Of a stretch of 64,000 bases of DNA, positions 3,887 to 18,907 are shown in pieces. The notes beneath the pieces are model-generated. The model saw nothing but the letters and a program-made list of their open reading frames with translations, was not told the DNA's origin and searched no databases. The DNA lies in contig NZ_KE384547.1 in assembly GCF_000426625.1 (NCBI RefSeq), forward strand, positions 2,037,159 through 2,101,158, in the 5' to 3' direction. The position numbers and the translations under genes were made by a program. Numbering within the stretch: position 1 is the stretch's first letter; each line of letters starts with the position of its first letter. Source of the DNA: Psychrilyobacter atlanticus DSM 19335 (GTDB taxonomy: Bacteria > Fusobacteriota > Fusobacteriia > Fusobacteriales > Fusobacteriaceae).

Positions 3887-3972
3887 CTTCCTCGGCCTCC
3901 TTTAGAATTCCTCTTTAAATTACTCCTACTTAACTCTACTCTTTAAATATGAAATTTATGTGAAGATATAAA

Positions 3973-4002
3973 AAACCTCCTACTTTTATAAGTAGGAGGT
4001 TT
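3973..4002 (-). terminator. Terminator of topA
   Basis: AAACCTCCTACTT (3973-3985) pairs perfectly with AAGTAGGAGGTTT (3990-4002). On the minus strand it is followed by a run of T, just after the topA stop. Confidence 0.85.
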
Positions 4003-4008
4003 CAAGTT

Positions 4009-6630
4009 TTATTTTTCTTCTTTTACTTTTTTAGTTGTTGTTTTCTTCTTAGCCGGAGCCTTCTTTGCAGGTGCTTTTTTAGCTACAGCTTTTTTTACTG
4101 GTTCTTTTTTCTTTGCAGGAGGAGCTACTGAAAGTTCCCCTGTTTCCTTATCTTTTAATATCTTCCTTGTATTTTTACAAGTTGGATAGTTACTACAAGC
4201 CAGGAATTTTCCCCTTCTACTTGCCTTGATCTCAAATTTACTACCGCACTTTTCACATACTCCAGCTTCAGCTATAAGCTTGTCTTCTACAGCTTTGATC
4301 TCATCCAATAGATATTTAATTATTATAACTCCATCTTTTTCCTCTAACTGCCCTTCTTTTACCATCTTTTTTATGCTTGTTGGCAGTGGTATTCTGATCT
4401 CATCAATAGCAAAGTTTTCACTTTCTAGATATTCTCCATATCTTCCCTTTTTTAAGATCATCATAGTTCCATCTTGTGTTTTCATGTCGGTATCTTTTTC
4501 TTCAAAATATTCATTCATCTCTAACAATCTTTCTTTTAGAGCTATCATCTCTACATCGATCTCTATACTTCCATCTCTCAAGACACCTATAACAGTACTA
4601 GATAATGGTAGTCTTTTGTTATCTGTTTCATAATTTTCACTCTCTAAGTATTCCCCGAATCTACCTTTTTTCAAGTTATATCTGACATCTTTGATCACTA
4701 TATCAGTAGGTATTCCCCTTTTAATTCTTTCTCTCTTCTGCACTATCTCATTAATAAAGATATGCCCATCCTCTAATTCCTGCTCATCGATCTCCACTGT
4801 TTTTAATGGGATTCTTCCACTACAGGTTTCAAAGTGTTCACACTCTAAATACTTTCCAAATCTACCTGTTTTTAGGAGCATCTTCCCTGTACAGCCATCC
4901 ACTGGACATGGTACATCAGATTCAATCCTTCTGTTAGTAATTTTTTCTACCTCTTTATCAAAGTTATCCAGAGCCTTTTTAAAGTCTACATAAAAGTCAT
5001 CTAAAACATTGGTCCACTTTATTTCTCCTTCTTCGATTGAATCCAGAGCGTCTTCCATACTAGATGTAAATTCTACTCCTAATATTCTTGGGAAATATTT
5101 ATTCAATATCTTTTCTACATCATAACCTAATTTAGTAGGTACAAATGATTTCCCCATAAACTCTACATATTCTCTCTTCTTCAAAGTTTCTATTATAGAT
5201 GCATAGGTAGAAGGTCTTCCAATTCCATCCGCTTCTAACTTTCTTACCAATGAAGATTCAGTAAATCTTTTAGGAGGTTTAGTCTCGTCTGCCTTTATAT
5301 TTAATTTTTCTAAATTTAACTTATCTCCCTTTTCAATACTAGGAAAACTAGCTGTTTTTATCTCATCTTCCTCTTTGAATACTTTATAGTATCCGTCAAA
5401 GGTTACCTTATTTACGATCCCTCTAAATTGGTATTTATCATATCCACTTATCAGAGTAAATTGGTCATATTCCATAGGTGCTAATTGAGAAATTATGAAT
5501 CTTTCCCAAATCAATTTGTATAATCTGTATTGGTCAGAGTTTAGATATTCCTCGATATTCTCTGGCTCTAAATCTATATAAGTAGGTCTTACCGCTTCAT
5601 GGGCGTCCTGTATTTTCTTTTTATCATCTGTTTTTTTCTTCTTTTCTTTCCCTATATATTTTTCACCATATTTCTCTAAAATAAATTCTTTAGCCTGTCC
5701 TTGAGCTTCCTCTGATATTCTAGTAGAGTCAGTTCTCATATAGGTAATCAGACCTTTTTGAGTTCCATCTATTTTCAATCCTTCATATAAACTCTGAGCT
5801 ACTCTCATAGTTTTAGAAGCTGAAAAACCTAAGTATGATGAAGCTAATTGTTGTAATGTACTTGTTTTTAATGGCAGTGGCGGCTTCTTTGTTTTTTTCG
5901 ATATCTCAGTGCTAGTTACTTCAAAAGTCGGATGTGTTTCTAGAGATTTTTTTAACTCCTCCATCTTTTCCTCATCCCACATCTTGATTCCTCTGTCATC
6001 CCCTGATTTATAGAGATTTAGATCTATGTTATCACTGAAATTTCCACTTACTTCCCAATATTTTTGAGGAATAAATGCCTTTATTTCATCTTCTAAGTCA
6101 CAGATTAATTTTAATGATACCGATTGAACTCTTCCTGCACTGGTGTTAGAAGATATTAGTTGCCATAAATATGGACTGATAGAGTATCCTACTATTCTGT
6201 CTAATAATCTTCTTGCTTGTTGTGCATCGACCCTGTCTTGATCTATGGTTCTAGGATTTTTTACTGCGTCTCTTATTGCAGTTTTAGTTATCTCATTAAA
6301 TTCTATCCTATTTTTTTCTTTTGGATCTAATTTTAATATATGAGCTATATGCCAAGCTATAGCTTCCCCTTCCCTATCCGGGTCGGCTGCCAGATAAATT
6401 TTATCTGATTTTTTTGCCAATGCTCTCAAGTTTTTGGTTATTTCACCCTTACCCTTTATTGTCGAATAAGAGGGTGTAAAATCATTCTCTATATCTATCC
6501 CCATCTTTGTCTTGGGAAGGTCCCTTATATGTCCATATGAGGCTGTAACCTCATAGTTACGTCCTAATATTTTCTTTATAGTATTTGCCTTTGCCGGCGA
6601 CTCCACTATAACTAGATTTTTTTTAGCCAC
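4009..6630 (-). CDS. topA: DNA topoisomerase I (type IA)
   Basis: Relaxes negative supercoils by a transient single-strand break. The TOPRIM domain begins with LVIVESPAKANTIKKILG and contains the metal-binding DPDREGEAIAWH; the catalytic tyrosine is in GLITYMRTDSTRIS near residue 300. The C-terminal part has one four-Cys ribbon (CPVDGC...ECEHFETC), two ribbon-like repeats without cysteines, a second four-Cys ribbon (CEKCG...CSNYPTC) and a Lys/Ala-rich tail. The frame is open to a GTG at 6639, but the GTG at 6630 has GGAG eight bases upstream and gives the usual MAKKNLVIVES start. It is the last gene of the run from uvrB. Confidence 0.96.
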   Translation of the reverse strand: MAKKNLVIVESPAKANTIKKILGRNYEVTASYGHIRDLPKTKMGIDIENDFTPSYSTIKGKGEITKNLRALAKKSDKIYLAADPDREGEAIAWHIAHILKLDPKEKNRIEFNEITKTAIRDAVKNPRTIDQDRVDAQQARRLLDRIVGYSISPYLWQLISSNTSAGRVQSVSLKLICDLEDEIKAFIPQKYWEVSGNFSDNIDLNLYKSGDDRGIKMWDEEKMEELKKSLETHPTFEVTSTEISKKTKKPPLPLKTSTLQQLASSYLGFSASKTMRVAQSLYEGLKIDGTQKGLITYMRTDSTRISEEAQGQAKEFILEKYGEKYIGKEKKKKTDDKKKIQDAHEAVRPTYIDLEPENIEEYLNSDQYRLYKLIWERFIISQLAPMEYDQFTLISGYDKYQFRGIVNKVTFDGYYKVFKEEDEIKTASFPSIEKGDKLNLEKLNIKADETKPPKRFTESSLVRKLEADGIGRPSTYASIIETLKKREYVEFMGKSFVPTKLGYDVEKILNKYFPRILGVEFTSSMEDALDSIEEGEIKWTNVLDDFYVDFKKALDNFDKEVEKITNRRIESDVPCPVDGCTGKMLLKTGRFGKYLECEHFETCSGRIPLKTVEIDEQELEDGHIFINEIVQKRERIKRGIPTDIVIKDVRYNLKKGRFGEYLESENYETDNKRLPLSSTVIGVLRDGSIEIDVEMIALKERLLEMNEYFEEKDTDMKTQDGTMMILKKGRYGEYLESENFAIDEIRIPLPTSIKKMVKEGQLEEKDGVIIIKYLLDEIKAVEDKLIAEAGVCEKCGSKFEIKASRRGKFLACSNYPTCKNTRKILKDKETGELSVAPPAKKKEPVKKAVAKKAPAKKAPAKKKTTTKKVKEEK

Positions 6631-6657
6631 TTCTATCACTCCAATATTTTGTCTTTA

Positions 6658-7713
6658 CTACACTCTTCTATATTTACCACCTGCAATAGCTCTCACAAGT
6701 TTTTTTAATTCTAAATTTGTTAATAATCCCAAAAGTTTTCCTATAGGAATATGTGTTTCAGTTATCAGTTCATCCAAACTTTTTTCTACAACCAATACAC
6801 TATACACCTTTTCCTCTTCTGAATCTATATCTATTTTCACATTAATTTGATTTTCTCCATCCCAGCCATACTCCTCCAATATATCTTTTCCACAGGTAAT
6901 CAACTTACCATAGGAGTCTTTAATGAGATTATTATTCCCCTCAAAGGATATATAGTCTGGAAATCCCGGAATAACAAATACATCTCTGCCTTCCTCTAAA
7001 GCCAGTTTAGCAGTTATTAAACTTCCGCCTTTTTTATAACTCTCTACTACTGTAACTCCCCTGGTCAATCCCACTATTATCCTGTTCCTTCTGGGAAAAT
7101 TATACCTGTCTGGAGGAGCACCTAATGGATATTCACTTATAAGGGTCCCTTCTTTAGCGATTCGTTCCCATTCATATTTATTTTCAGGAGGATAGATCAC
7201 ATCTAACCCACTTCCTACAACAGCTATGGTATTTCCACCTAGGTTCAAGGCCCTCTTATGAGCAGTTACATCTACTCCAATTGCTAATCCACTGGTTATA
7301 GTAACTCCTGCTCCTACTAAGTCTCCCACTAATTCCCTGCACGCAGATTCTCCATAATTAGTCATCTTCCGTGTTCCAACCACTCCTATATTTTTGTCAT
7401 AAAAGTTCATCTTCCCCTTTATGTATAGAAAAACTGGTGGATGAGAGATGTTTTTCAAATATAATGGATACTCTCTTTCCTTTATAGAAATTGTTTCAAT
7501 ATTTAAATCTAGCATTTTTTCCCTATAAAAATCAAGATTAATTTTATAAGAATTTAAAATTTTATCAATATCTTCGTATTTAAACCTCATAATTTTATTA
7601 TAAAATGACCTGTCATGGAGAAAAATTTCTTCAAATTCTTCACACAAATTCATCAGTTTAATTATTATACTGTCTCTTACTCCCGCTACTCTCAATTTAT
7701 ACCAAGAATCCAA
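6658..7713 (-). CDS. dprA: DNA-processing protein DprA
   Basis: Loads RecA on incoming single-stranded DNA during transformation and protects it. The Rossmann-like core is clear: GVVGTRKMTNYGESACREL, SGLAIGVDVTAHKRAL, VVGSGLDVIYPPEN and FPRRNRIIVGL, ending with the DVFVIPG strand. A winged-helix-like C-terminal segment follows. The start is a judgement: a TTG at 7711-7713 lies seven bases after GGAGG, while the frame is also open to a TTG at 7743 without a good site. The product is about 351 residues. It sits 27 bp before topA, the common dprA-topA pairing. Confidence 0.93.
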   Translation of the reverse strand: MDSWYKLRVAGVRDSIIIKLMNLCEEFEEIFLHDRSFYNKIMRFKYEDIDKILNSYKINLDFYREKMLDLNIETISIKEREYPLYLKNISHPPVFLYIKGKMNFYDKNIGVVGTRKMTNYGESACRELVGDLVGAGVTITSGLAIGVDVTAHKRALNLGGNTIAVVGSGLDVIYPPENKYEWERIAKEGTLISEYPLGAPPDRYNFPRRNRIIVGLTRGVTVVESYKKGGSLITAKLALEEGRDVFVIPGFPDYISFEGNNNLIKDSYGKLITCGKDILEEYGWDGENQINVKIDIDSEEEKVYSVLVVEKSLDELITETHIPIGKLLGLLTNLELKKLVRAIAGGKYRRV

Positions 7714-7783
7714 AGCTTTCACCTCCACGACAGTTTCAATCAAAATATAATTTAAAAATCTTTTTTATTTAATTTTTTGTCAC

Positions 7784-8677
7784 TTAATTTCTTCCTAGCT
7801 TACTATATATATACCCCAAATTTTTTCTTATTTTCTTAGAGTCAGGAAATTTAGCCTGTGCCTTTTCCAAAATATCTTTAGCACTGCTGTATTTATACTC
7901 AGCCATATAGATATTTGCCATGGCTATATAGACATTTTCATCCTCCTGGTATATTAGGTATTTTTCCAGATTTTCTATTGCCTTACCATAATCACCTTTC
8001 ATCTGGTAAGAGCTTCCTAACCCGAGATATCCTCTATAAAAGTCTGGTTTTTCAGATAAAAGTTTATTATAGAATGTAATAGCCGTATCATATTTCCCTA
8101 AAAATCTAGCTGTTGTAGCTGCACCGAAATAATTTCTATAATCTCCTCCTTTATCTCTCTTAAATACAGTATAAGCTCTTTCAAAAGATTTATCATTCAT
8201 ATATATACTTCCCAAAATATAAATATCCTCGCTGTTTATATAATTAGTTTTTTTCAGATAGCTTTCAAATTCCTCAAAATATTCCTCTTTTTTATCGTAT
8301 CCCCACTTAGAAACATTTTTTTTATCTATAGTGAGTTTTTTTTGCATTGCCTTCGTATCCTGAGGATTTAATTTTAAAATTTTTCTATATACTCCCAAGG
8401 CTTTATCCGTTTGATTCAGGCCCTCATATGACTCTGCCACCCCACGAAGAGACTCTATATCATCTTTTTTCACCTTAAAGGCACTCAGATAAAAATCCAG
8501 TGAATCACTGTAATTCCCCTCTATATAAGAATTTCCTCCTGCTTCCATATACTTCTCATAAGTTGCAAGAGACTCACTTGCGCTTATATAGCTGCCCTCT
8601 GTAGTAAGACTACCTTGAACCTCTGCATATCCTATTGAAACTATCCCAATAAATAATACTACCAATAATTTTTTCAT
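7784..8677 (-). CDS. Periplasmic TPR-repeat protein
   Basis: A 297-residue protein with a signal peptide (MKKLLVVLFIGIVSIGYA) followed by tetratricopeptide repeats through most of its length, for example ALGVYRKILKLNPQDTKAM, AITFYNKLLSEKPDFYRGY and AIENLEKYLIYQEDENVY. TPR arrays mediate protein-protein contacts; no catalytic domain is visible. The ATG begins directly after the xseA stop and its ribosome binding site lies in the end of xseA, so the two are translationally linked. Its role beside DNA-processing genes is unknown. Confidence 0.8.
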   Translation of the reverse strand: MKKLLVVLFIGIVSIGYAEVQGSLTTEGSYISASESLATYEKYMEAGGNSYIEGNYSDSLDFYLSAFKVKKDDIESLRGVAESYEGLNQTDKALGVYRKILKLNPQDTKAMQKKLTIDKKNVSKWGYDKKEEYFEEFESYLKKTNYINSEDIYILGSIYMNDKSFERAYTVFKRDKGGDYRNYFGAATTARFLGKYDTAITFYNKLLSEKPDFYRGYLGLGSSYQMKGDYGKAIENLEKYLIYQEDENVYIAMANIYMAEYKYSSAKDILEKAQAKFPDSKKIRKNLGYIYSKLGRN

Positions 8678-9877
8678 CTATTTTATCTCCTCTACTCTAC
8701 TGATTACACTACCATCATGATAGATAATCTCTATTTTTTCACCTTTTTCTAATTCTCCTGCACCTCTTATAACCTTGTTACCCGCTTTAGTTATAGTATA
8801 TCCCCTCTTCAATATTCCTTCTGGATTCAATGAACGGAGTTTTTCCATCCTTACTTCTAAAAGATATTTTTTTTGTATTAAACTATTATTAATAACTTTT
8901 TTTAACCTGTCTTCCCTATCCATCAATAGATTATTTCTGTCTACAACAGTCTCTAAATAACTCCTCAAGATATAGCTTCTTTTTAAAGTTTCTAATTTTT
9001 CCTTTTTTTTCTGTAGGTTCCCCAGCAAGCTGTTGTTTAGCTTCTTCTTCCTGTCTTCCAAAGTCTCCATTAGCAGGTCTTTTCTAGGAACAACTAACTC
9101 CGCTGCATGGGTCGGAGTAGAAGCACGCATATCTGCTGTAAGATCTGTCAAAAGATTATCTATCTCATGACCTACAGCTGAAACAATGGGAGTTTTAGTA
9201 TTAAAGTATGCCAAAGCCACCTCTTTTTTATTGAATGACCATAGGTCTTCTACACTTCCTCCACCCCGTCCTGCTACAATAAGATCTATCTCCTCCATCT
9301 TATCCAGAGTTTTTATCCCTTTTATGATCTCATCTTCAGATCCTATCCCTTGAACCTTGGCAGGATAGACATAGATATTTATATTTTCATATCTAAGTTT
9401 AGCAGTATTTATTATATCTTTTACTGCCGCTCCTGTTCCCGAAGTTACTATTCCAATATTTTGAGGTAATTTTGGAATAGGCAGTTTATATTTTGTGTCA
9501 AAATAACCCTCTTTAGCCAGCTCTCTTTTAGTTCTTTCCAACTCCTCAAAGAGTTTTCCCAGAGTCCCCTCTTTTTCCACATGAGCTACCAAAATTTGAT
9601 AGTTCCCATTAGCTTCATACAGTGTCACTTTTCCAAATAATTTTATCTTGTCTCCCTCTTTTAAATCCTCTGGTATTTTTTTAAATTTATATCCAAAAGA
9701 CACACATTTTACACTGGCCTTACTGTCTTTAAGAGTAAAATAAAGATGACCACTCTTATAATAATTTATCCCCGAAATTTCGCCTTTTAGAAAAAAATTA
9801 TTAAAGCTATCGTTCCCTTCTAAATATTCCTTTACCATCTTATTTATTTGACTTACTGAAAATATCCTATCCTTCAT
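8678..9877 (-). CDS. xseA: Exodeoxyribonuclease VII large subunit
   Basis: Catalytic subunit of exonuclease VII, which degrades single-stranded DNA. An N-terminal OB fold (about residues 1-105) binds DNA. The catalytic domain has GRGGGSVEDLWSFN, VGHEIDNLLTDLTADMRAST and PTHAAELVVP. A long coiled coil follows and the tail has the LNPEGILKRGYTIT motif. AAGGAGAG precedes the ATG. The small-subunit gene xseB, often next to xseA, is not adjacent; a TPR gene occupies that position instead. Confidence 0.95.
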   Translation of the reverse strand: MKDRIFSVSQINKMVKEYLEGNDSFNNFFLKGEISGINYYKSGHLYFTLKDSKASVKCVSFGYKFKKIPEDLKEGDKIKLFGKVTLYEANGNYQILVAHVEKEGTLGKLFEELERTKRELAKEGYFDTKYKLPIPKLPQNIGIVTSGTGAAVKDIINTAKLRYENINIYVYPAKVQGIGSEDEIIKGIKTLDKMEEIDLIVAGRGGGSVEDLWSFNKKEVALAYFNTKTPIVSAVGHEIDNLLTDLTADMRASTPTHAAELVVPRKDLLMETLEDRKKKLNNSLLGNLQKKKEKLETLKRSYILRSYLETVVDRNNLLMDREDRLKKVINNSLIQKKYLLEVRMEKLRSLNPEGILKRGYTITKAGNKVIRGAGELEKGEKIEIIYHDGSVISRVEEIK

Positions 9878-9949
9878 ATACTACTCTCCTTTACCTTCTT
9901 ACATTTATAGATATCGATTTTTATGGATATTAAAATAAATAAAAAAGAA

Positions 9950-11410
9950 TTATATCTCCAATATTTTTATTCCATCTTCCCAAACAGTTATTTTTTTATC
10001 TTCAGACACCTTTATAGCTAAACCATATTTAGATCCACTTATTGCAGCAGCCGTCCTGGCCCCTTCGACCTTCTCCTTACTTCCATTCATATCCAATTTC
10101 ACTAACCTTCCAAATGATAAAAGGTTGAATTCATTGTCAAGGGTCACAGCACCATCTACCTTAGATATTAATTTCAAGTATTCAAAATTATGATTTTTTA
10201 TTCTGGTATTTTCCCCACCCTTTAACACTGTCCTCTTATATATACTATTATCTTCATTCCCACCTATAAATATTTTTTCTCTCTCTTTTTTTTTTATAGT
10301 TCTTTCTAGAATTATAAAAAGTCCTCCCTTACCTTCTTCTAGGAGGTTTTTAATAAGGCATACCAAAACATCTACATTCATTATAATATTTTCAATTATA
10401 TCTTTTTTCTCTATTTTATCATTAAAAAGGTGAAATACAAAAGAATCCATATAAAATTTTTCTATAATCAAAAATTTTAAAATATGAAAAGATTTTAACT
10501 TCCATTTCCCACTTCTATACGAAAGATAGTTATCTATAGAATTTTGTAAATATAATTTCAACTCTTTATTTTTAATTTCCATATATATATAAGGGAATCT
10601 TTCTCTCTTTTCCTTATTATAAGTATTAAAAAGAACTTTCGAGGATATCATCTCTTCGTTGGAATATTTAACCAATTTATCTATCTTATCCTCACTCATC
10701 TTAAATCCAGCTTTAAGTTCTATGCTTATACTATCTTTATCTATATAGCTTAAAATATTTTTAGACAACAAAGATATAAATGAGATTAAATATCCGTTAT
10801 TTTGACTCCTTAAATTAACCAGCATCCTTTCTTTGAACACCGTATGCTTTTCATCATTTACTCCTAACCCATAACCTTTGAAATCACTGTCTATAATCAA
10901 TACCAAATTATCTCCATTTAACATCTTTAGGGATAATTTCTCTTTGAATATTTCTTCTATTTTTTTAGGAGTATCAAAGGGCAGGAAATTTAATCCCATT
11001 TTTTTCAATTCCTCTGGGATAATTTCTCTATTTTTAAAGAGTAATATATTTAGGTTTGAATTTTCACTTTCATAAGTTTCATTGCATATCCTCTTTATGG
11101 TATCCATAAAGTTCATCTGTTCACCTGTAACTACCAGCTTTTCCTTTACCATATGACCTATTAATTTTTGAGAAAACTCTTCTATCAGGTCGGTAAAGTA
11201 GATATTATTATTTTCCTCATAGTATTCCTCTAAAATTATATCCAGAATCTCAAAAATTTCACCTATATGTTCCAAAGTTTTTTTTATAAATTTTGAATTA
11301 AATTCCGGTATAAATTCCACATGATTACCATGAGCTTTCAGCTTTAATTTTACCCCTAAATACTCACTGAGCTTCTCTAAAAATTCTCCATAATAATCTA
11401 TTTTTTTCAT
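9950..11410 (-). CDS. Protein with C-terminal diadenylate-cyclase-like (DisA_N/DAC) domain
   Basis: 486 residues. The last ~120 resemble the DAC fold that makes or binds cyclic di-AMP: GGLFIILER matches the family GALIVIER strand, DGAVTLD (Asp419-Gly-Ala) matches the catalytic DGA motif, and the GARTAAA segment (450-456) sits where active enzymes have GTRHRAA, followed by a family-like LAIKVSEDKKITVWEDG end. The RHR triad is therefore replaced by Arg-Thr-Ala, so it may be a divergent enzyme or a nucleotide sensor. The N-terminal ~350 residues are unrecognised and contain no membrane segment. The start codon overlaps the stop of the upstream alarmone-synthetase-like gene by 4 bp (ATGA), indicating coupled translation. 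Domain identity is inferred by eye. Confidence 0.65.
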   Translation of the reverse strand: MKKIDYYGEFLEKLSEYLGVKLKLKAHGNHVEFIPEFNSKFIKKTLEHIGEIFEILDIILEEYYEENNNIYFTDLIEEFSQKLIGHMVKEKLVVTGEQMNFMDTIKRICNETYESENSNLNILLFKNREIIPEELKKMGLNFLPFDTPKKIEEIFKEKLSLKMLNGDNLVLIIDSDFKGYGLGVNDEKHTVFKERMLVNLRSQNNGYLISFISLLSKNILSYIDKDSISIELKAGFKMSEDKIDKLVKYSNEEMISSKVLFNTYNKEKRERFPYIYMEIKNKELKLYLQNSIDNYLSYRSGKWKLKSFHILKFLIIEKFYMDSFVFHLFNDKIEKKDIIENIIMNVDVLVCLIKNLLEEGKGGLFIILERTIKKKEREKIFIGGNEDNSIYKRTVLKGGENTRIKNHNFEYLKLISKVDGAVTLDNEFNLLSFGRLVKLDMNGSKEKVEGARTAAAISGSKYGLAIKVSEDKKITVWEDGIKILEI

Positions 11411-12546
11411 TTAGCCCCCTTTTTGTTTCTAAAAATAATATTCTTTAGTGAATATTTAGTAGGCTTTTTGGATTTGTTTTTATACTCTAGATGATATTTT
11501 TCCATCATTTCTGCCATTCCTTTTCTCTCGTCGTCGGTCAATATCTTAAACATCTCTAAAAATTTTAACTTTTCGCTGAGCGGTTCTCCTCCTAACAGTA
11601 CATAGGCCATGGAATAAAATATACCTCTTTTCTCTATTACATTTTCTCCTGTTTCCTGGACTATTTTATTGGTTACAAAAATTATTTCTCTTTTTTTAGT
11701 CTGGAGTATAGTTTCTAGGTCTCCTATCCTCTTTAATTTGAAATAATTCAATAATTTTATTATCTCTACAGGAGCTTCTTCCCTTACCTCTTCCTTTAAG
11801 TTGAGTTCTGCCAAAGTCTCTCTAAAAAGATTATTTAAGATAACATTGTTTTCCATAAAATACCTGATGGTTATATTATTTAACGGGCTATCACTAGGCA
11901 TATTTTTCCCCATCTTCATAGAATCATGTACTTTTTCCTCATATTTTATCAGATCCTGTTTTATATTTACAAATTCCTTATCAGCTAACTCCAGTAAACT
12001 TGCGACCCTAGAGAAACTTCTTATTAATTCATCTGGGATTCCTATCCTGCTTTTATACCCCAAATCATGTTCTATGGTAGCCCAAGTATGCTGTAGAAGA
12101 CTCCTTATCTGAATCTCAAACCTTATCCCTTTAAATTTTTTATACTTCTCTTCTAATGGGAATGACACCACGTAGTGAAGGGACATATATCCAAAAGATC
12201 TAGGATCCAATGCTTTTCTCTTATCGATAGTATTTTTTTCATCTATCACAAAAAATTCTTTTATTTTTTCAGCAGCTATGTCTACCTGATCCTCCATAAA
12301 AGTAACTACTCTCACTCCTACAACATCGGTAATATCGGATAACCTCTGATACTTTCTCCCCTTATCATGAATTTTTTTACTCAGACTCCCCTTGGTTTTT
12401 ATTCGAAAATCTATACTTTGAAGTCTGTATTCCCTATTTTCAATCTCATTTTCAAAGATCTCTTGTATGACCTCTATCATCTCATTATAGACGGGCACCA
12501 TCTTATCATATTTTTTTAAAAATCGATCTACTTTTATATTTTTCAT
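11407..12546 (-). CDS. RelA/SpoT-type (p)ppGpp synthetase domain protein
   Basis: 379 residues with an N-terminal synthetase domain and no HD hydrolase domain. Motifs seen: SIDFRIKTKGSLSKKI, the Mg-binding DVVGVRVV (Asp74), GYMSLHYVV (119-127) and EIQIRSLLQHTWATIEHDLG (144-163), all with the residues conserved in active synthetases. The C-terminal ~190 residues are helical and unrecognised, longer than in the usual small alarmone synthetases, and end with a basic tail. AGGAGG precedes the ATG, 17 bp after uvrB. It likely transfers pyrophosphate to GDP or GTP; a different acceptor, as in toxic SAS enzymes, cannot be excluded. It overlaps the DAC-like gene. Confidence 0.85.
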   Translation of the reverse strand: MKNIKVDRFLKKYDKMVPVYNEMIEVIQEIFENEIENREYRLQSIDFRIKTKGSLSKKIHDKGRKYQRLSDITDVVGVRVVTFMEDQVDIAAEKIKEFFVIDEKNTIDKRKALDPRSFGYMSLHYVVSFPLEEKYKKFKGIRFEIQIRSLLQHTWATIEHDLGYKSRIGIPDELIRSFSRVASLLELADKEFVNIKQDLIKYEEKVHDSMKMGKNMPSDSPLNNITIRYFMENNVILNNLFRETLAELNLKEEVREEAPVEIIKLLNYFKLKRIGDLETILQTKKREIIFVTNKIVQETGENVIEKRGIFYSMAYVLLGGEPLSEKLKFLEMFKILTDDERKGMAEMMEKYHLEYKNKSKKPTKYSLKNIIFRNKKGAK

Positions 12547-12563
12547 GATTTCCTCCTAATCAC

Positions 12564-14540
12564 CTATATTTCCAACAATAATTTGTCTAATTTTAACATT
12601 TCATCCCTCTTTTTTATAGCTCCTTCAAAATCTAATTCTCCAGCTAACTGACTTATTTCCACCTTTAATCTTTCTATCTGCTCTATTATATCCTTTTTAG
12701 AAGTGTATATCATTACCTCTTCATTTATCTCATCTATATCTAAACCATAATCGAGATTGAGCAGATCTTCTGAGATCTCATTTATAGTTGACCTAGGGTC
12801 TATATTATTATTTATATTATATTCTATTTGTTTTTCTCTTCTTCTATCTGTTTCTGAGATAGCCTCTTTCATAGATTTTGTCATGATATCTGCATATAGG
12901 ATAGCTTCTCCCTCTATATTTCTGGCGGCTCTTCCCATTGTTTGTATCAGTGATCTCCTACTCCTTAAAAACCCTTCTTTATCTGCTTCTAATATAGCTA
13001 CCAAGGATACCTCTGGAATATCTAGTCCTTCCCTTAATAAATTTATTCCTACTAATACATCAAATTCCTTTTTTCTCAACCCCCGAATTATCTCGATTCT
13101 CTCTAGGGTATCTATTCCAGAATGCATATATTTTACCCTTACACCTAAATCTGCATAATATTCTGTCAGCTCTTCTGCCATTTTTTTTGTCAGTGTAGTC
13201 ACTAAAACACATTGTCTTTTCTCTACTCTTAACCTTATCTCCTCTAAGAGGTCATCCACTTGATTTTTAGTCGGTTTTATTATTATTTTAGGCTCTACAA
13301 TTCCTGTAGGACGAACCAGTTGTTCTGCTACTGCTTCACTATTTTCTAATTCAAAGTCTCCAGGGGTAGCCGAAACAAATACCATCTGACCTCCTACCTC
13401 TCTGAACTCTTCAAATTTTAGAGGTCTGTTATCTAAAGCAGATGGTAATCTAAATCCATTTTCTACCAAAGTTGTTTTTCTAGATCTGTCTCCCTTGTAC
13501 ATCCCGCCAATTTGAGCCAGCCCTATATGAGATTCATCTATAAAGATTAAAAAATCATCGGGAAAGTACTCCAGTAGTGTATGAGGTTTCTCCCCCTCTT
13601 TTTTCCCCGACAGGTATCTGGAATAATTCTCTATGCCCTTACAGTAACCGATCTCCTTTATCATCTCGAGATCGTATTCAGTCCTTTGTTTTATCCTCTG
13701 GGCTTCCAGGAGCTTTCCTGAATTTTCAAATTTTTCCACCTGGATCTCCAGATCATTTTTTATCTCCTCCATGATCTGCTCTAACTTCTCTCCCTCTGTC
13801 AGGTAGTGAGTGGCCGGCATAATCATTATTCTCTGAATATTCCTTTTTATACTCTGCCCTGTAAGGGTGTTTATTTCAGAGATACTTTCCAGTTCATCCC
13901 CCCAGTATTCAAGCCTGTATCCACTCTCCTGATATACAGGATAGATATCTATAATATCTCCCTTTACCCTGAATTTTCCCCTTTCAAAGGCTATATCATT
14001 TCTTTCATATCTCAAGTATATTAATTTTTTCATAACTTCATCTCTGCTCATACCACTCTTAAGGTCGATAGCTAAGGTCATCTTCTTATATGTTTCAGGA
14101 GACCCTAAACCATAGATAGCCGATACAGACGCTACTATTATAACATCTTTTCTAGTTAAAAGGGCTGCAGTAGCCGAATGTCGCATTTTATCGATCTCAT
14201 CGTTGATAGATGAGTCTTTCTCTATAAACGTGTCTGTAGACGGTATATAAGCCTCTGGTTGGTAATAATCGTAGTAGGATACAAAATATTCTACTGCATT
14301 CTCAGGAAAAAACTTTTTATACTCTGAATACAGCTGTGCTGCCAGAGTTTTATTGGGAGCCATAATAAGGGCCGGTCTATTAGTTTCCTTAATTACATTG
14401 GCTATAGTAAATGTTTTCCCTGATCCCGTTACTCCTAATAATGTCTGATCTCTATAATTATTATTTAACCCCTCTACCAGAGTCTTTATAGCACTTGGCT
14501 GATCTCCTGTAGGAGTATAATTTGATACTAATTTAAACAT
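12564..14540 (-). CDS. uvrB: Excinuclease ABC subunit B
   Basis: Damage-verification helicase of nucleotide excision repair; works with UvrA and recruits UvrC. The 658-residue sequence has Walker A (GVTGSGKT), the damage-probing beta-hairpin ([17 protein letters not shown]), the IDESH Walker B box, QTMGRAARN helicase motif VI and a C-terminal UVR domain ([20 protein letters not shown]). GGGAGGG lies just before the ATG. It heads a run of minus-strand genes, all with gaps under about 80 bp, that ends at topA. Confidence 0.98.
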
Positions 14541-14596
14541 CTTAGCCCTCCCTAATATTTATCCTCATTCCTCTTCCTTTCAAAGAGCAAAGGAAT

Positions 14597-14628
14597 AAAA
14601 AAAGAGTAGCTTAAGCTACTCTTTTTTT
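14597..14628 (-). terminator. Perfectly palindromic terminator
   Basis: AAAAAAAGAGTAGCTT (14597-14612) is followed at once by its exact complement (14613-14628). It ends the EamA gene and separates it from uvrB. Symmetry means it could act on both strands. Confidence 0.85.
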
Positions 14629-14635
14629 ATCTTTC

Positions 14636-15523: not shown

Positions 15524-15974
15524 TTTAATCACCTTTCCCTTTTGTATAACCAAAATGCTAACCTAACCTACAGATATAATAAATTGAAATATTCACTATA
15601 TTCATCTTCTTTCCACCTATACATTCTACTTCTTCTTCACAAAAAAAGATAATTCATTTTATTCATCCTGTATATGTTATACTATATATTATATTCATCC
15701 TAGGAATATTTTGATTTTGTTCTGCTACCATGATTTTTTCTTGTGGAATTATAGGGCAGACCTTCCTAATAATAGGGGCTGTTGTTATTTTATTGGAATC
15801 ACAATGACAAACTTTCTTCAGAGATGCGTTTTATAATATAATAATTAGTATGACTTTATTCTATTACAATCTATAAATAATTATAATTTATTAAGAAATA
15901 AGAGGTTTTCTTTTTTATCATAAGTATATTATAGAAATAAATCTGAATAAATTACCCAAAGGGAGTTGAACATA
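15524..15974 (+). other. Intergenic region between divergent genes
   Basis: AT-rich spacer between the EamA gene and the diguanylate cyclase. A TATAAT at 15882-15887 could be the cyclase -10 box but its -35 is poor. A 25-codon hydrophobic open frame at 15730-15807 has no ribosome binding site and looks like a remnant. Nothing else was recognised. Confidence 0.4.
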
Positions 15975-17471
15975 ATGTTAAGAGCAAAAAGTTTATTTAT
16001 AGTAACAATTTCTAGTATTGTAGTCTTTATTTTGATTTTTGTTAATCTAAAAAAATCAGTAGAAAAAGATTATGAACAGATAGAGGTTGGAATATCTAAA
16101 TCAATATATAAATTGATAAACAATGAATTTCATAGTTCATATTCAAACTTAGAAAGACTTAATGTTGATTGGTCTAAATGGGATGATAGCTATAATTTTA
16201 TAGATTCAGGTGATCCTAAAATAAGAGAAGATTATATTAAGAGTAACTTAGTTGATACCATTTTAGAAGACTTAGATTTAAACCTTATTCTCTTTTTAAA
16301 TGATAATGGGAAAATAGTATACCAGACAAGCTCTGATGACGACTCCGATGAGGATCTTTCTTCAAGAGAGGTTATAGAATTAAAAAACGAGATAGAGTTT
16401 CATAAACAAAAAACAGGAATGATAGCTGGAAAAAATAATAAAATTTTAATTTTTTCCAACTTAGGAATAACAGACAGCAATAATTCAAAAAAACCAGTTG
16501 GTAACTTAATTATGGGTTATTTTCTAGATGAAAAAAAATTGAAAACTTTAGAAGAAAAATTAGGAATTCCATTTAATATATTAGGAGTTTCTGAAAATTC
16601 AAAAAATCCATATGAAATCAAAATAGAAAAAGATACCGTCCTCAATAAATTTTATATTCCAACCCTTTCTGGCCGGAGCATTGTCTTAGAAAATCAAAGA
16701 GATGCCAATATATTATTTTTAGGAAAGGAAAATATAAAGAAATATATAGTAATGCTGTTAATAAACTTTTTAATTTTGATTTTTGTTATCTATATCTTTA
16801 TGGAAAGATTTATTGTAAAGAGGTTAAGAAATATGGAACACTCAGTTAAAGAGATCATAAAACATAAGGATTTAGGGAAACGCCTTGAAATCAATGGGAA
16901 AGATGAAATTGGGGATTTAGGAAAAAATATAAACAACCTCTTAGAAGATATTGAAAAGATGAAAAAAAGGCTTTATAATTTAGCTACCTATGATGTAATG
17001 ACAGGGATACTTAACAGACATATCGGCCTGGAAAAATTAAATAAAAAATTTAAAAAAGTTAAGAAAAATAAAGGTACTCTAATAGCTGTCTTTATCGACA
17101 TAAATAATCTCAAATATGTAAATGATCGATTTTCCCATGAAGAAGGGGATGAGTTGATTAAAAATATTGTTAAAACTATAGAAGGCAGCCTCCTCCCGGA
17201 AGATATTTTTCTACGGTTTGGAGGAGATGAATTTATCCTGGGATTTGATAGATTAAATATAGCAGAAGTAAGGGTATTATTTAATGATATTGAAAAACAA
17301 TTTGAAGAATATACTAAAAACAATTCAAAACAATACAAGACCAGTATAAGTGTTGGAATGGTAGAATGCTCTGGAGACGATACCTTGGAAGAATATATCA
17401 ACCTAGCAGATATAGAGATGTATAAAGATAAGAAAAACAAGAAAAAATTACCAGAACGAATATATATATAA
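15975..17471 (+). CDS. Membrane diguanylate cyclase, CHASE4-HAMP-GGDEF
   Basis: Predicted to sense a periplasmic signal and synthesise cyclic di-GMP. An N-terminal membrane helix (LFIVTISSIVVFILIFV) is followed by a CHASE4 sensor with the hallmark WSKWDDSYNF, a second helix (VMLLINFLILIFVIYIF), a HAMP-like linker and a GGDEF domain. The active motif GGDEF is intact at about residues 416-420, and FIDINNLKYVND holds the metal and substrate Asp residues. The inhibitory RxxD site is LxxD here, so product feedback may be absent. ATG at 15975 with GGGAG upstream is preferred to a TTG nine bases earlier. The terminator is split by an IS. Confidence 0.9.
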   Translation: MLRAKSLFIVTISSIVVFILIFVNLKKSVEKDYEQIEVGISKSIYKLINNEFHSSYSNLERLNVDWSKWDDSYNFIDSGDPKIREDYIKSNLVDTILEDLDLNLILFLNDNGKIVYQTSSDDDSDEDLSSREVIELKNEIEFHKQKTGMIAGKNNKILIFSNLGITDSNNSKKPVGNLIMGYFLDEKKLKTLEEKLGIPFNILGVSENSKNPYEIKIEKDTVLNKFYIPTLSGRSIVLENQRDANILFLGKENIKKYIVMLLINFLILIFVIYIFMERFIVKRLRNMEHSVKEIIKHKDLGKRLEINGKDEIGDLGKNINNLLEDIEKMKKRLYNLATYDVMTGILNRHIGLEKLNKKFKKVKKNKGTLIAVFIDINNLKYVNDRFSHEEGDELIKNIVKTIEGSLLPEDIFLRFGGDEFILGFDRLNIAEVRVLFNDIEKQFEEYTKNNSKQYKTSISVGMVECSGDDTLEEYINLADIEMYKDKKNKKKLPERIYI

Positions 17472-17594: not shown

Positions 17595-18005
17595 ATGTCT
17601 AAAAAAATATTTTCAGATATAGAAGTTACTAAATTATCTAAAAATAAAAATATTTCTAAAGTTTCAAATAAAGCTATTACATATACTTTTGAATTTAAAA
17701 AGAAATTTATTGAGGAATATAAAATGGGAAAGCCTCCGCGTATAATTTTTGAGGAAGCTGGCTTTGATGTGGATATTTTAGGTATGAAAAGAGTTGAAAC
17801 TTCCTCTAAACGTTGGAGGAGAGCTTTTAAAGATAATGGTGAACTGGGTTTAATGGATTCCAGGAAAACATCTTCTGGAAGACCTCTGAAAAGAGAGTTA
17901 ACAGATTTAGAAAAAATTAAACGTTTAGAAGCACAGATTGAATATTTAAAAATAGAGAATGAATTTTTAAAAAAGTTAGACGAGATCGAAAGGGGGGATG
18001 CTTAA
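17595..18005 (+). CDS. IS3-family transposase OrfA (helix-turn-helix)
   Basis: 136 residues. The N-terminal half has a helix-turn-helix (EFKKKFIEEYKMGKPPRII) for binding the IS ends, with a second basic region around RRAFKDNGELGLMD. The C-terminal leucine-zipper-like coil (IKRLEAQIEYLKIENEFLKK) matches IS3 OrfA proteins. AAGGGGTG precedes the ATG. The stop lies just after a run of six G (17992-17997), where a -1 shift would join it to OrfB. Confidence 0.9.
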   Translation: MSKKIFSDIEVTKLSKNKNISKVSNKAITYTFEFKKKFIEEYKMGKPPRIIFEEAGFDVDILGMKRVETSSKRWRRAFKDNGELGLMDSRKTSSGRPLKRELTDLEKIKRLEAQIEYLKIENEFLKKLDEIERGDA

Positions 18006-18055
18006 ATAAAACTGAGATTTTTGAAGCTATTAAATTAATAGTTAAAAGATATAAG

Positions 18056-18907
18056 TTGAAATCAAAAATTAAATTTCTATGTTTTCAAGCGGGGGTTTCC
18101 AGGTCTGGTTTTTACAACTATATTAATTCAGAAAAAAATAGAAATAATAAAGAAGCTAAAGATTTAAACTCCAAAAGATTAATTCTAAAAGCTTTTAATA
18201 GAAGAGGTTTTAAGAAGGGCGCCCGAAGTATCAGGATGATTTTAGAGAATGAATTTGATACTATTTTTAATTTGAAAAAAATAAGAAGAATTATGAAAAA
18301 ATACGAAATAATATGTCCTCACAGAAAACCGAACCCCTATAAAAACATAGCTAAAGCAACTAAGGAACATTCGACTGTCCCTAATATATTGAAAAGAGAA
18401 TTTAAACAAGAAGTTCCTAAAAAAGTTCTCCTAACTGATATCAGCTATCTAACTTATGGAATTGGAAAAAGAGCTTATCTTTCAACAATAAAAGATGGTA
18501 GTACTAATGAAGTATTAGCTCATGAGGTGTCTCATAGTCTTAGTATTGATATTGCTTTAAACACGGTTAAGCGCTTAGTTAAAAGAAAGTTTAAACTCCA
18601 TCCAGAGTGCATTATTCATTCGGATCAAGGCTTTCACTATACTAATCCTAAGTTTCAAAGATTAGTGAAATCAAAGAAAATTATCCAATCAATGTCGCGA
18701 AAAGGTAACTGTTGGGATAATGCTCCTATGGAGTCATTCTTTGGACATATGAAAGATGAAATAAATTTAAAGCCCTTAAAAACATTAGATGATGTAAAGA
18801 AAGAAGTATCTAAATATATGAATTATTACAATAACCATAGGTATCAATGGAACTTAAAAAAGATGACTCCTGTGCAATACAGAAATCATCTTTTAACAGT
18901 ATCTTAA
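18056..18907 (+). CDS. IS3-family transposase OrfB (DDE integrase core)
   Basis: Catalytic half of the transposase. The rve-type core has the DDE residues in LLTDISYL, IIHSDQGFHY and DNAPMESFFGHMKDE, preceded by an HTH_21-like segment. The first in-frame TTG at 18056 has no ribosome binding site, but the frame is open upstream to 17963, overlapping orfA in the -1 frame, and the two share a GAAAGGGGGGAT slip site. The real product is therefore probably an OrfAB fusion made by frameshifting. No internal stops are seen. Confidence 0.9.
   Translation: MKSKIKFLCFQAGVSRSGFYNYINSEKNRNNKEAKDLNSKRLILKAFNRRGFKKGARSIRMILENEFDTIFNLKKIRRIMKKYEIICPHRKPNPYKNIAKATKEHSTVPNILKREFKQEVPKKVLLTDISYLTYGIGKRAYLSTIKDGSTNEVLAHEVSHSLSIDIALNTVKRLVKRKFKLHPECIIHSDQGFHYTNPKFQRLVKSKKIIQSMSRKGNCWDNAPMESFFGHMKDEINLKPLKTLDDVKKEVSKYMNYYNNHRYQWNLKKMTPVQYRNHLLTVS

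Follow-up and report, generated by a model that had tools for sequence, protein, structure and literature searches.

The Gene Pair and Its Surroundings

The DNA analyzed here, termed the window, is a 64,000-nucleotide stretch of the genome of the marine bacterium Psychrilyobacter atlanticus DSM 19335 (Fusobacteriota; contig NZ_KE384547.1, positions 2,037,159 to 2,101,158). Its minus strand carries an overlapping pair of genes (Table 1), of which the first in the order of transcription encodes a small alarmone synthetase and the downstream one encodes a protein whose C-terminal domain resembles diadenylate cyclases (the DAC-like protein). The coordinates and the overlap given in the initial annotation are correct, and the neighbors it named (uvrB, xseA, dprA, and topA) agree with the NCBIfam assignments. 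Terminator-like sites with long stems are located directly outside the uvrB-to-topA run, at positions 14594–14631 and 3972–4003, and no comparable long-stem site is found within it, suggesting that the run is likely a single transcription unit. On the plus strand, about 1.4 kb from uvrB, lies a gene for a membrane-type GGDEF diguanylate cyclase (15966–17471), the third nucleotide-signaling gene of the neighborhood. An IS3-family transposase gene pair is also present on the plus strand (17595–18907).

Table 1. Features of the gene pair and the surrounding transcription unit, in window coordinates
Feature	Position	Strand	Remarks
Small alarmone synthetase, 379 aa	11407..12546	-	RelA/SpoT-type synthetase domain (~residues 7–200) and ~180-aa C-terminal extension
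DAC-like protein, 486 aa	9950..11410	-	N-terminal ~340 aa and C-terminal DAC-fold domain
Overlap of both reading frames, 4 bp	11407..11410	-	Putative translational coupling
Probable single transcription unit	4009..14540	-	uvrB, synthetase, DAC-like, xseA, TPR protein, dprA, topA (NCBIfam names)
Predicted DAC-fold domain, residues ~345–486	9953..10378	-	Pfam, hhalign, AF2, Foldseek, VIA-align
GGLFIILER, residues 362–370	10301..10327	-	GALI motif position (adenine contact)
DGA, residues 419–421	10148..10156	-	Kept; invariant in alignment
GARTAAA, residues 450–456	10043..10063	-	GxRHRxA position; Gly and Arg kept, no His
SED, residues 469–471	9998..10006	-	(V/I)SEE position; Ser kept

The Small Alarmone Synthetase

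The synthetase matches the Pfam RelA_SpoT model above its cut-off (E = 2.4e-19), and no Pfam match to a hydrolase (HD) domain is found. The closest solved relative is YjbM from B. subtilis (PDB 5dec, E = 2e-17), and the R..K..K, D, GY.S.H, and EIQIR residues are all kept in the alignment of the two proteins. These conserved residues (R48, K50, K58, D74, R79, G119-Y120, H124, E144, Q146, and R148) are the positions at which members of the YjbM family bind ATP, Mg, and GTP. With a RelA_SpoT domain, the catalytic residues, and no HD hydrolase, the protein is by its sequence a small alarmone synthetase with intact catalytic motifs and is predicted to synthesize the starvation signal (p)ppGpp, which bears out the initial annotation of a synthetase with all catalytic motifs and no hydrolase. 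The synthetase domain and catalytic residues are common to the YjbM/RelQ-type small synthetases of B. subtilis, whereas the ~180-aa C-terminal extension and the apparently coupled DAC-like gene set the paired synthetase apart from them.

The same genome encodes a separate long Rel (open frame of 729 aa) and two more short synthetases; the presence of the long Rel rules out that the paired synthetase is a fragment of it. The other Fusobacteriota examined contain solitary synthetases of ~360 aa that are only 25–27% identical to the paired one and have no DAC-like neighbor. A second small synthetase with a C-terminal extension is encoded in the P. atlanticus genome (L012:2889-3956; 25% identical to the paired one), and its counterparts in other Fusobacteriaceae (L013, L014, L015) are located directly before a GAF-domain-like gene.

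The DAC-Fold Domain

The only relevant Pfam match of the DAC-like protein is to the DAC family (PF02457), and the match falls below the curated cut-off of 27 bits with either the whole protein (21.1 bits, E = 2.5e-4) or its C-terminal 147 aa (24.4 bits, E = 2.4e-5). The DACNV, DACNG, DACNK, DACND, and DACNH models may be absent from the copy of Pfam that was searched; these DACN-type sensor families were reportedly described by Burroughs and colleagues in 2015. Independent matches to the Pfam DAC model are obtained for six of the seven Psychrilyobacter members (best E = 2.3e-5). In profile-profile comparisons with hhalign, residues 345–482 align with DisA residues 13–133 with the motifs in register (82%) and residues 410–486 align with DacZ-type cyclases (93%), as compared to 0.2% for an unrelated control alignment. 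One further hhalign comparison is left out of account, since its second alignment contains sequences of the genus and makes it circular. Furthermore, a family profile that includes the relatives described below picks up DacZ-type cyclases in distant genomes (E = 1e-5 to 9e-9). Neither the DAC-like sequence nor the alignment built on it has a significant match among PDB sequences.

The structure of residues 331–486 predicted by AF2 has a pLDDT of 75 and a pTM of 0.74. Foldseek and VIA-align searches with this model match only DACs (Z = 10.7–13.2, the highest being DisA) before the score drops to Z = 3.0 for the next, unrelated fold; 14 of the 22 rows of the input alignment come from canonical DACs or from a DAC of the DS-2 type, so the predicted structure may lean towards the DAC fold. 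Taken together, the Pfam, profile-profile, and predicted-fold evidence indicates that residues ~345–486 are a divergent diadenylate-cyclase (DAC) domain, such that the profile search and structure prediction proposed in the initial annotation both favor its C-terminal DAC assignment. A model of all 486 aa, computed from nine sequences of the genus, has a pLDDT of 30 and is too poor to be of use. For the N-terminal region, profile comparisons with the relatives yield no more than a short S.R.G.W segment that is equaled or exceeded by 2 of 100 column shuffles, and no homology is claimed. No Pfam match to a CBS domain is found in the protein.

Active-Site Motifs and the Missing Histidine

The window protein shares with DisA and the DacZ-type cyclases the predicted fold and the order of the GGL/GAL, DGA, GxR, and SE motifs, and the GGLFIILER, DGA, and GARTAAA segments named in the initial annotation are all found where it placed them. 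In contrast to these enzymes, the window protein has no RHR His, a segment from GARTAAA to SED that is two residues shorter, a different N-terminal region, and a Pfam score under the PF02457 cut-off. In CdaA, the ligand is contacted by the Leu of GALI, the Asp of DGA, the Thr-Arg-His of GxRHRxA, and the Ser/Glu of (V/I)SEE, and the positions of the GGL segment, DGA, GxR, and Ser correspond to adenine, ribose, and phosphate contacts (PMC7288161). Family members with the full set of motifs all have RTA, RST, or RGA in place of RHR; the His is present in all DisA/DacZ-type enzymes inspected (11/11). CdaS no longer forms c-di-AMP once its RHR is mutated to AAA (PMC4568413). Given the loss of the His, the shortened segment, and the CdaS result, canonical cyclization by this domain appears unlikely; with the contact motifs retained, nucleotide binding is plausible.

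The nearest characterized protein type is the CBASS-associated DAC of DS-2, a validated three-gene phage-defense system in which the predicted catalytic residues of the DAC are required for defense; 15 of 30 homologues of this DAC sit with CBASS (PMC13092281). Like the window protein, the DS-2 DAC (NCBIfam DS2_3, NF053872) consists of a large N-terminal region and a divergent DAC domain. The window protein itself gives no match to the DS2_3 model at E up to 10, and its gene is surrounded by uvrB, the synthetase gene, and xseA with no adjoining CBASS phospholipase or CD-NTase, unlike the DS-2 arrangement. A Bacillota protein that does match the model (L074, 409–1806; E = 2.7e-66) has GARYNSA at the GxRHRxA position and thus also lacks the His, with RYNSA in place of the RTAAA of the window protein. 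The gene for this protein (L074 and L076) lies among transposase and restriction-like genes.

The requirement for the predicted catalytic residues in the DS-2 DAC, together with its His-less relative, suggests that catalysis is not necessarily lost with the His. Consequently, the domain could still be an enzyme, a divergent cyclase with an altered active site that forms c-di-AMP or another product, in which case the operon would make two signals. The strict retention of DGA and GxR is consistent with such an activity, but the DACs that have been tested need the RHR motif, the RHR-bearing segment is two residues shorter, and DisA is already encoded in the genome; a live cyclase is therefore considered unlikely.

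Relatives Outside the Genus

Relatives outside Psychrilyobacter were first reached through a gut contig labeled as bacteriophage (MT837587.1), which encodes one of them (L054, 5184–6551). This record also carries a long S-layer-like protein and resembles a gut bacterial contig more than a phage. The other relatives are from Vescimonas (Clostridia; L055), Agrobacterium vitis plasmid pRvVAT039d (L056), a Paracoccus plasmid (L057), and another member of the Fusobacteriaceae (L058). The gene on the Paracoccus plasmid stops before the RHR-position motif; the four relatives with all motifs have GGRTAAA, GARGAAC, or GARSTAA, none with a His. Matches in 398 Bacillota genomes are limited to DisA and a single protein of the DS2_3 type. 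No relatives turn up in the viral contigs scanned, and neither the window protein nor L058 gives a match in tblastn searches of plasmids.

Because the His-less motif recurs in unrelated relatives, it can be viewed as a trait of the family rather than an accident of one genome, and this recurrence rules out a sequencing or species-level oddity. By the sequences available, the missing RHR His is a family signature. The initial annotation took the loss of RHR as a hint of a sensor function, and the pattern of the loss across the family argues in the same direction. A tree of the domain groups most of the His-less proteins weakly (support 85/80) and contains long branches, and consequently is not relied on here.

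The DAC-like gene on the Agrobacterium plasmid, which encodes an RTA-type relative, adjoins a CBASS operon comprising a patatin-like phospholipase, a DncV-like cyclase, ThiF, and Mov34. This setting recalls that of the DS-2 DAC and suggests a possible DS-2-like arrangement in Alphaproteobacteria. Within this region (L056:5599-11399), the CBASS operon is on the opposite strand to the DAC-like gene.

Conservation and Distribution of the Pair

As far as their contigs extend, all eight genomes of the Psychrilyobacter type contain the pair with its uvrB/xseA neighbors, and the two frames overlap or abut in each. Within the genus, both genes have dN/dS values of ~0.03–0.13 and are under strong purifying selection, and in the DAC-like protein conservation is highest over the last 82 residues. 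A profile built from the genus gives no convincing match in the other 90 of the 98 Fusobacteriota searched, where five matches (E = 0.006–0.07) each span just 43–50 residues. A wider profile adds only L058 across the phylum. The synthetase neighbor is absent at L055, L056, L057, and L058. The absence of the pair from the other Fusobacteriota searched, together with the relatives that lack a synthetase neighbor, indicates that the adjacency is a gain at the level of the genus, or has been lost elsewhere, and is not a widely inherited module. The synteny expected by the initial annotation thus holds throughout the genus and does not extend to the rest of the phylum.

These observations bear on two further explanations. 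The two proteins may be independent stress factors encoded in one DNA-repair operon, where the DAC-like protein would act in DNA maintenance and the synthetase would meet the same stress with no contact between them. The apparent single transcription unit from uvrB to topA and the occurrence of relatives of either protein alone favor this explanation, but frames that overlap or abut throughout the genus suggest fixed stoichiometry or coupling, and independence appears fairly unlikely. Alternatively, the pair could be a domesticated defense or toxin-antitoxin unit in which the synthetase is a growth-arresting effector and the DAC-like protein is the trigger or neutralizer. The relative beside a complete CBASS operon on the Agrobacterium plasmid, the plasmid-borne or patchy occurrence of other relatives, and the tie of DS-2 between this protein type and defense are consistent with such a unit, as is the match of the synthetase to a PADLOC candidate family, which other RelA_SpoT domains may also show. 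Against it, the genus keeps the pair at a single core locus rather than in a defense island, both genes are subject to purifying selection, and the guanine-stacking Tyr (GY.S.H) and the sequence similarity to YjbM suggest that the synthetase is an ordinary producer of (p)ppGpp. This second explanation is considered very improbable.

Proposed Function of the Pair

A cyclase fold that lacks the catalytic His suggests that the DAC-like protein is probably a sensor of adenine nucleotides that may control the synthetase. It is proposed that the degenerate DAC domain has lost cyclization and has probably retained the binding of an adenine nucleotide (c-di-AMP or ATP), and that the protein would be a sensor for the translationally coupled synthetase or a partner that regulates it. 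The protein would act on the synthetase, perhaps through its N-terminal region, such that the state of the c-di-AMP/ATP pool would raise or lower alarmone synthesis. This reading, in which a non-cyclizing domain regulates the synthetase, is the one favored here, albeit tentatively and at somewhat less than even confidence. We infer ligand binding, lack of catalysis, contact with the synthetase, and the direction of control. A narrower version, in which a DAC-fold pseudo-cyclase that binds c-di-AMP (or ATP) is a dedicated regulator of the small (p)ppGpp synthetase, appears fairly unlikely. The interpretation given in the initial annotation is partly supported: its observations are confirmed and the pair is fixed in the genus, but the single two-nucleotide signaling module that it suggested is hypothetical and, as relatives elsewhere have no synthetase neighbor, not supported as a general arrangement.

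The genome encodes DisA beside radA and also encodes a PgpH-type protein, suggesting that this organism probably both makes and degrades c-di-AMP. A c-di-AMP riboswitch (RF00379) is not found in the genome. The logic of a c-di-AMP reader that controls an alarmone synthetase is already known from DarB and CbpB, c-di-AMP receptors of Firmicutes that switch Rel (PMC7900238, PMC8549634), and by analogy the same logic may apply to the window pair. However, DarB and CbpB are CBS-domain proteins that act on a long bifunctional Rel, whereas the candidate sensor in the window has a predicted DAC fold and is operon-coupled to a small synthetase, its putative target. The stand-alone synthetases of B. subtilis are not bound by DarB, a finding that counts against the proposed sensor function, as does the restriction of the synthetase link to one genus with relatives that lack it.

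Implications

Where c-di-AMP and (p)ppGpp are known to be linked, in a few Firmicutes, the connection passes through CBS proteins and PgpH. The degenerate DAC family is otherwise seen alone or beside a phage-defense operon; here, an entire genus has it at a fixed place beside a (p)ppGpp synthetase. The parts are of known kinds. In the literature searched, no description was found of a small synthetase paired with a His-less DAC-like protein, although other papers could contain one, among them the review of DAC architectures that the DS-2 authors cite. That the pair forms a compact, operon-encoded link of two second messengers outside Firmicutes, with a dead synthesizing domain as the receptor, is at present rather speculative. 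Should the DAC-like protein bind c-di-AMP and modulate the synthetase, it would illustrate how a signal-making fold is turned to signal reading. The pair would also provide a two-protein system for direct tests of the cross-talk between c-di-AMP and (p)ppGpp, and it would open a way to learn what DAC proteins without the His do in CBASS-linked systems.
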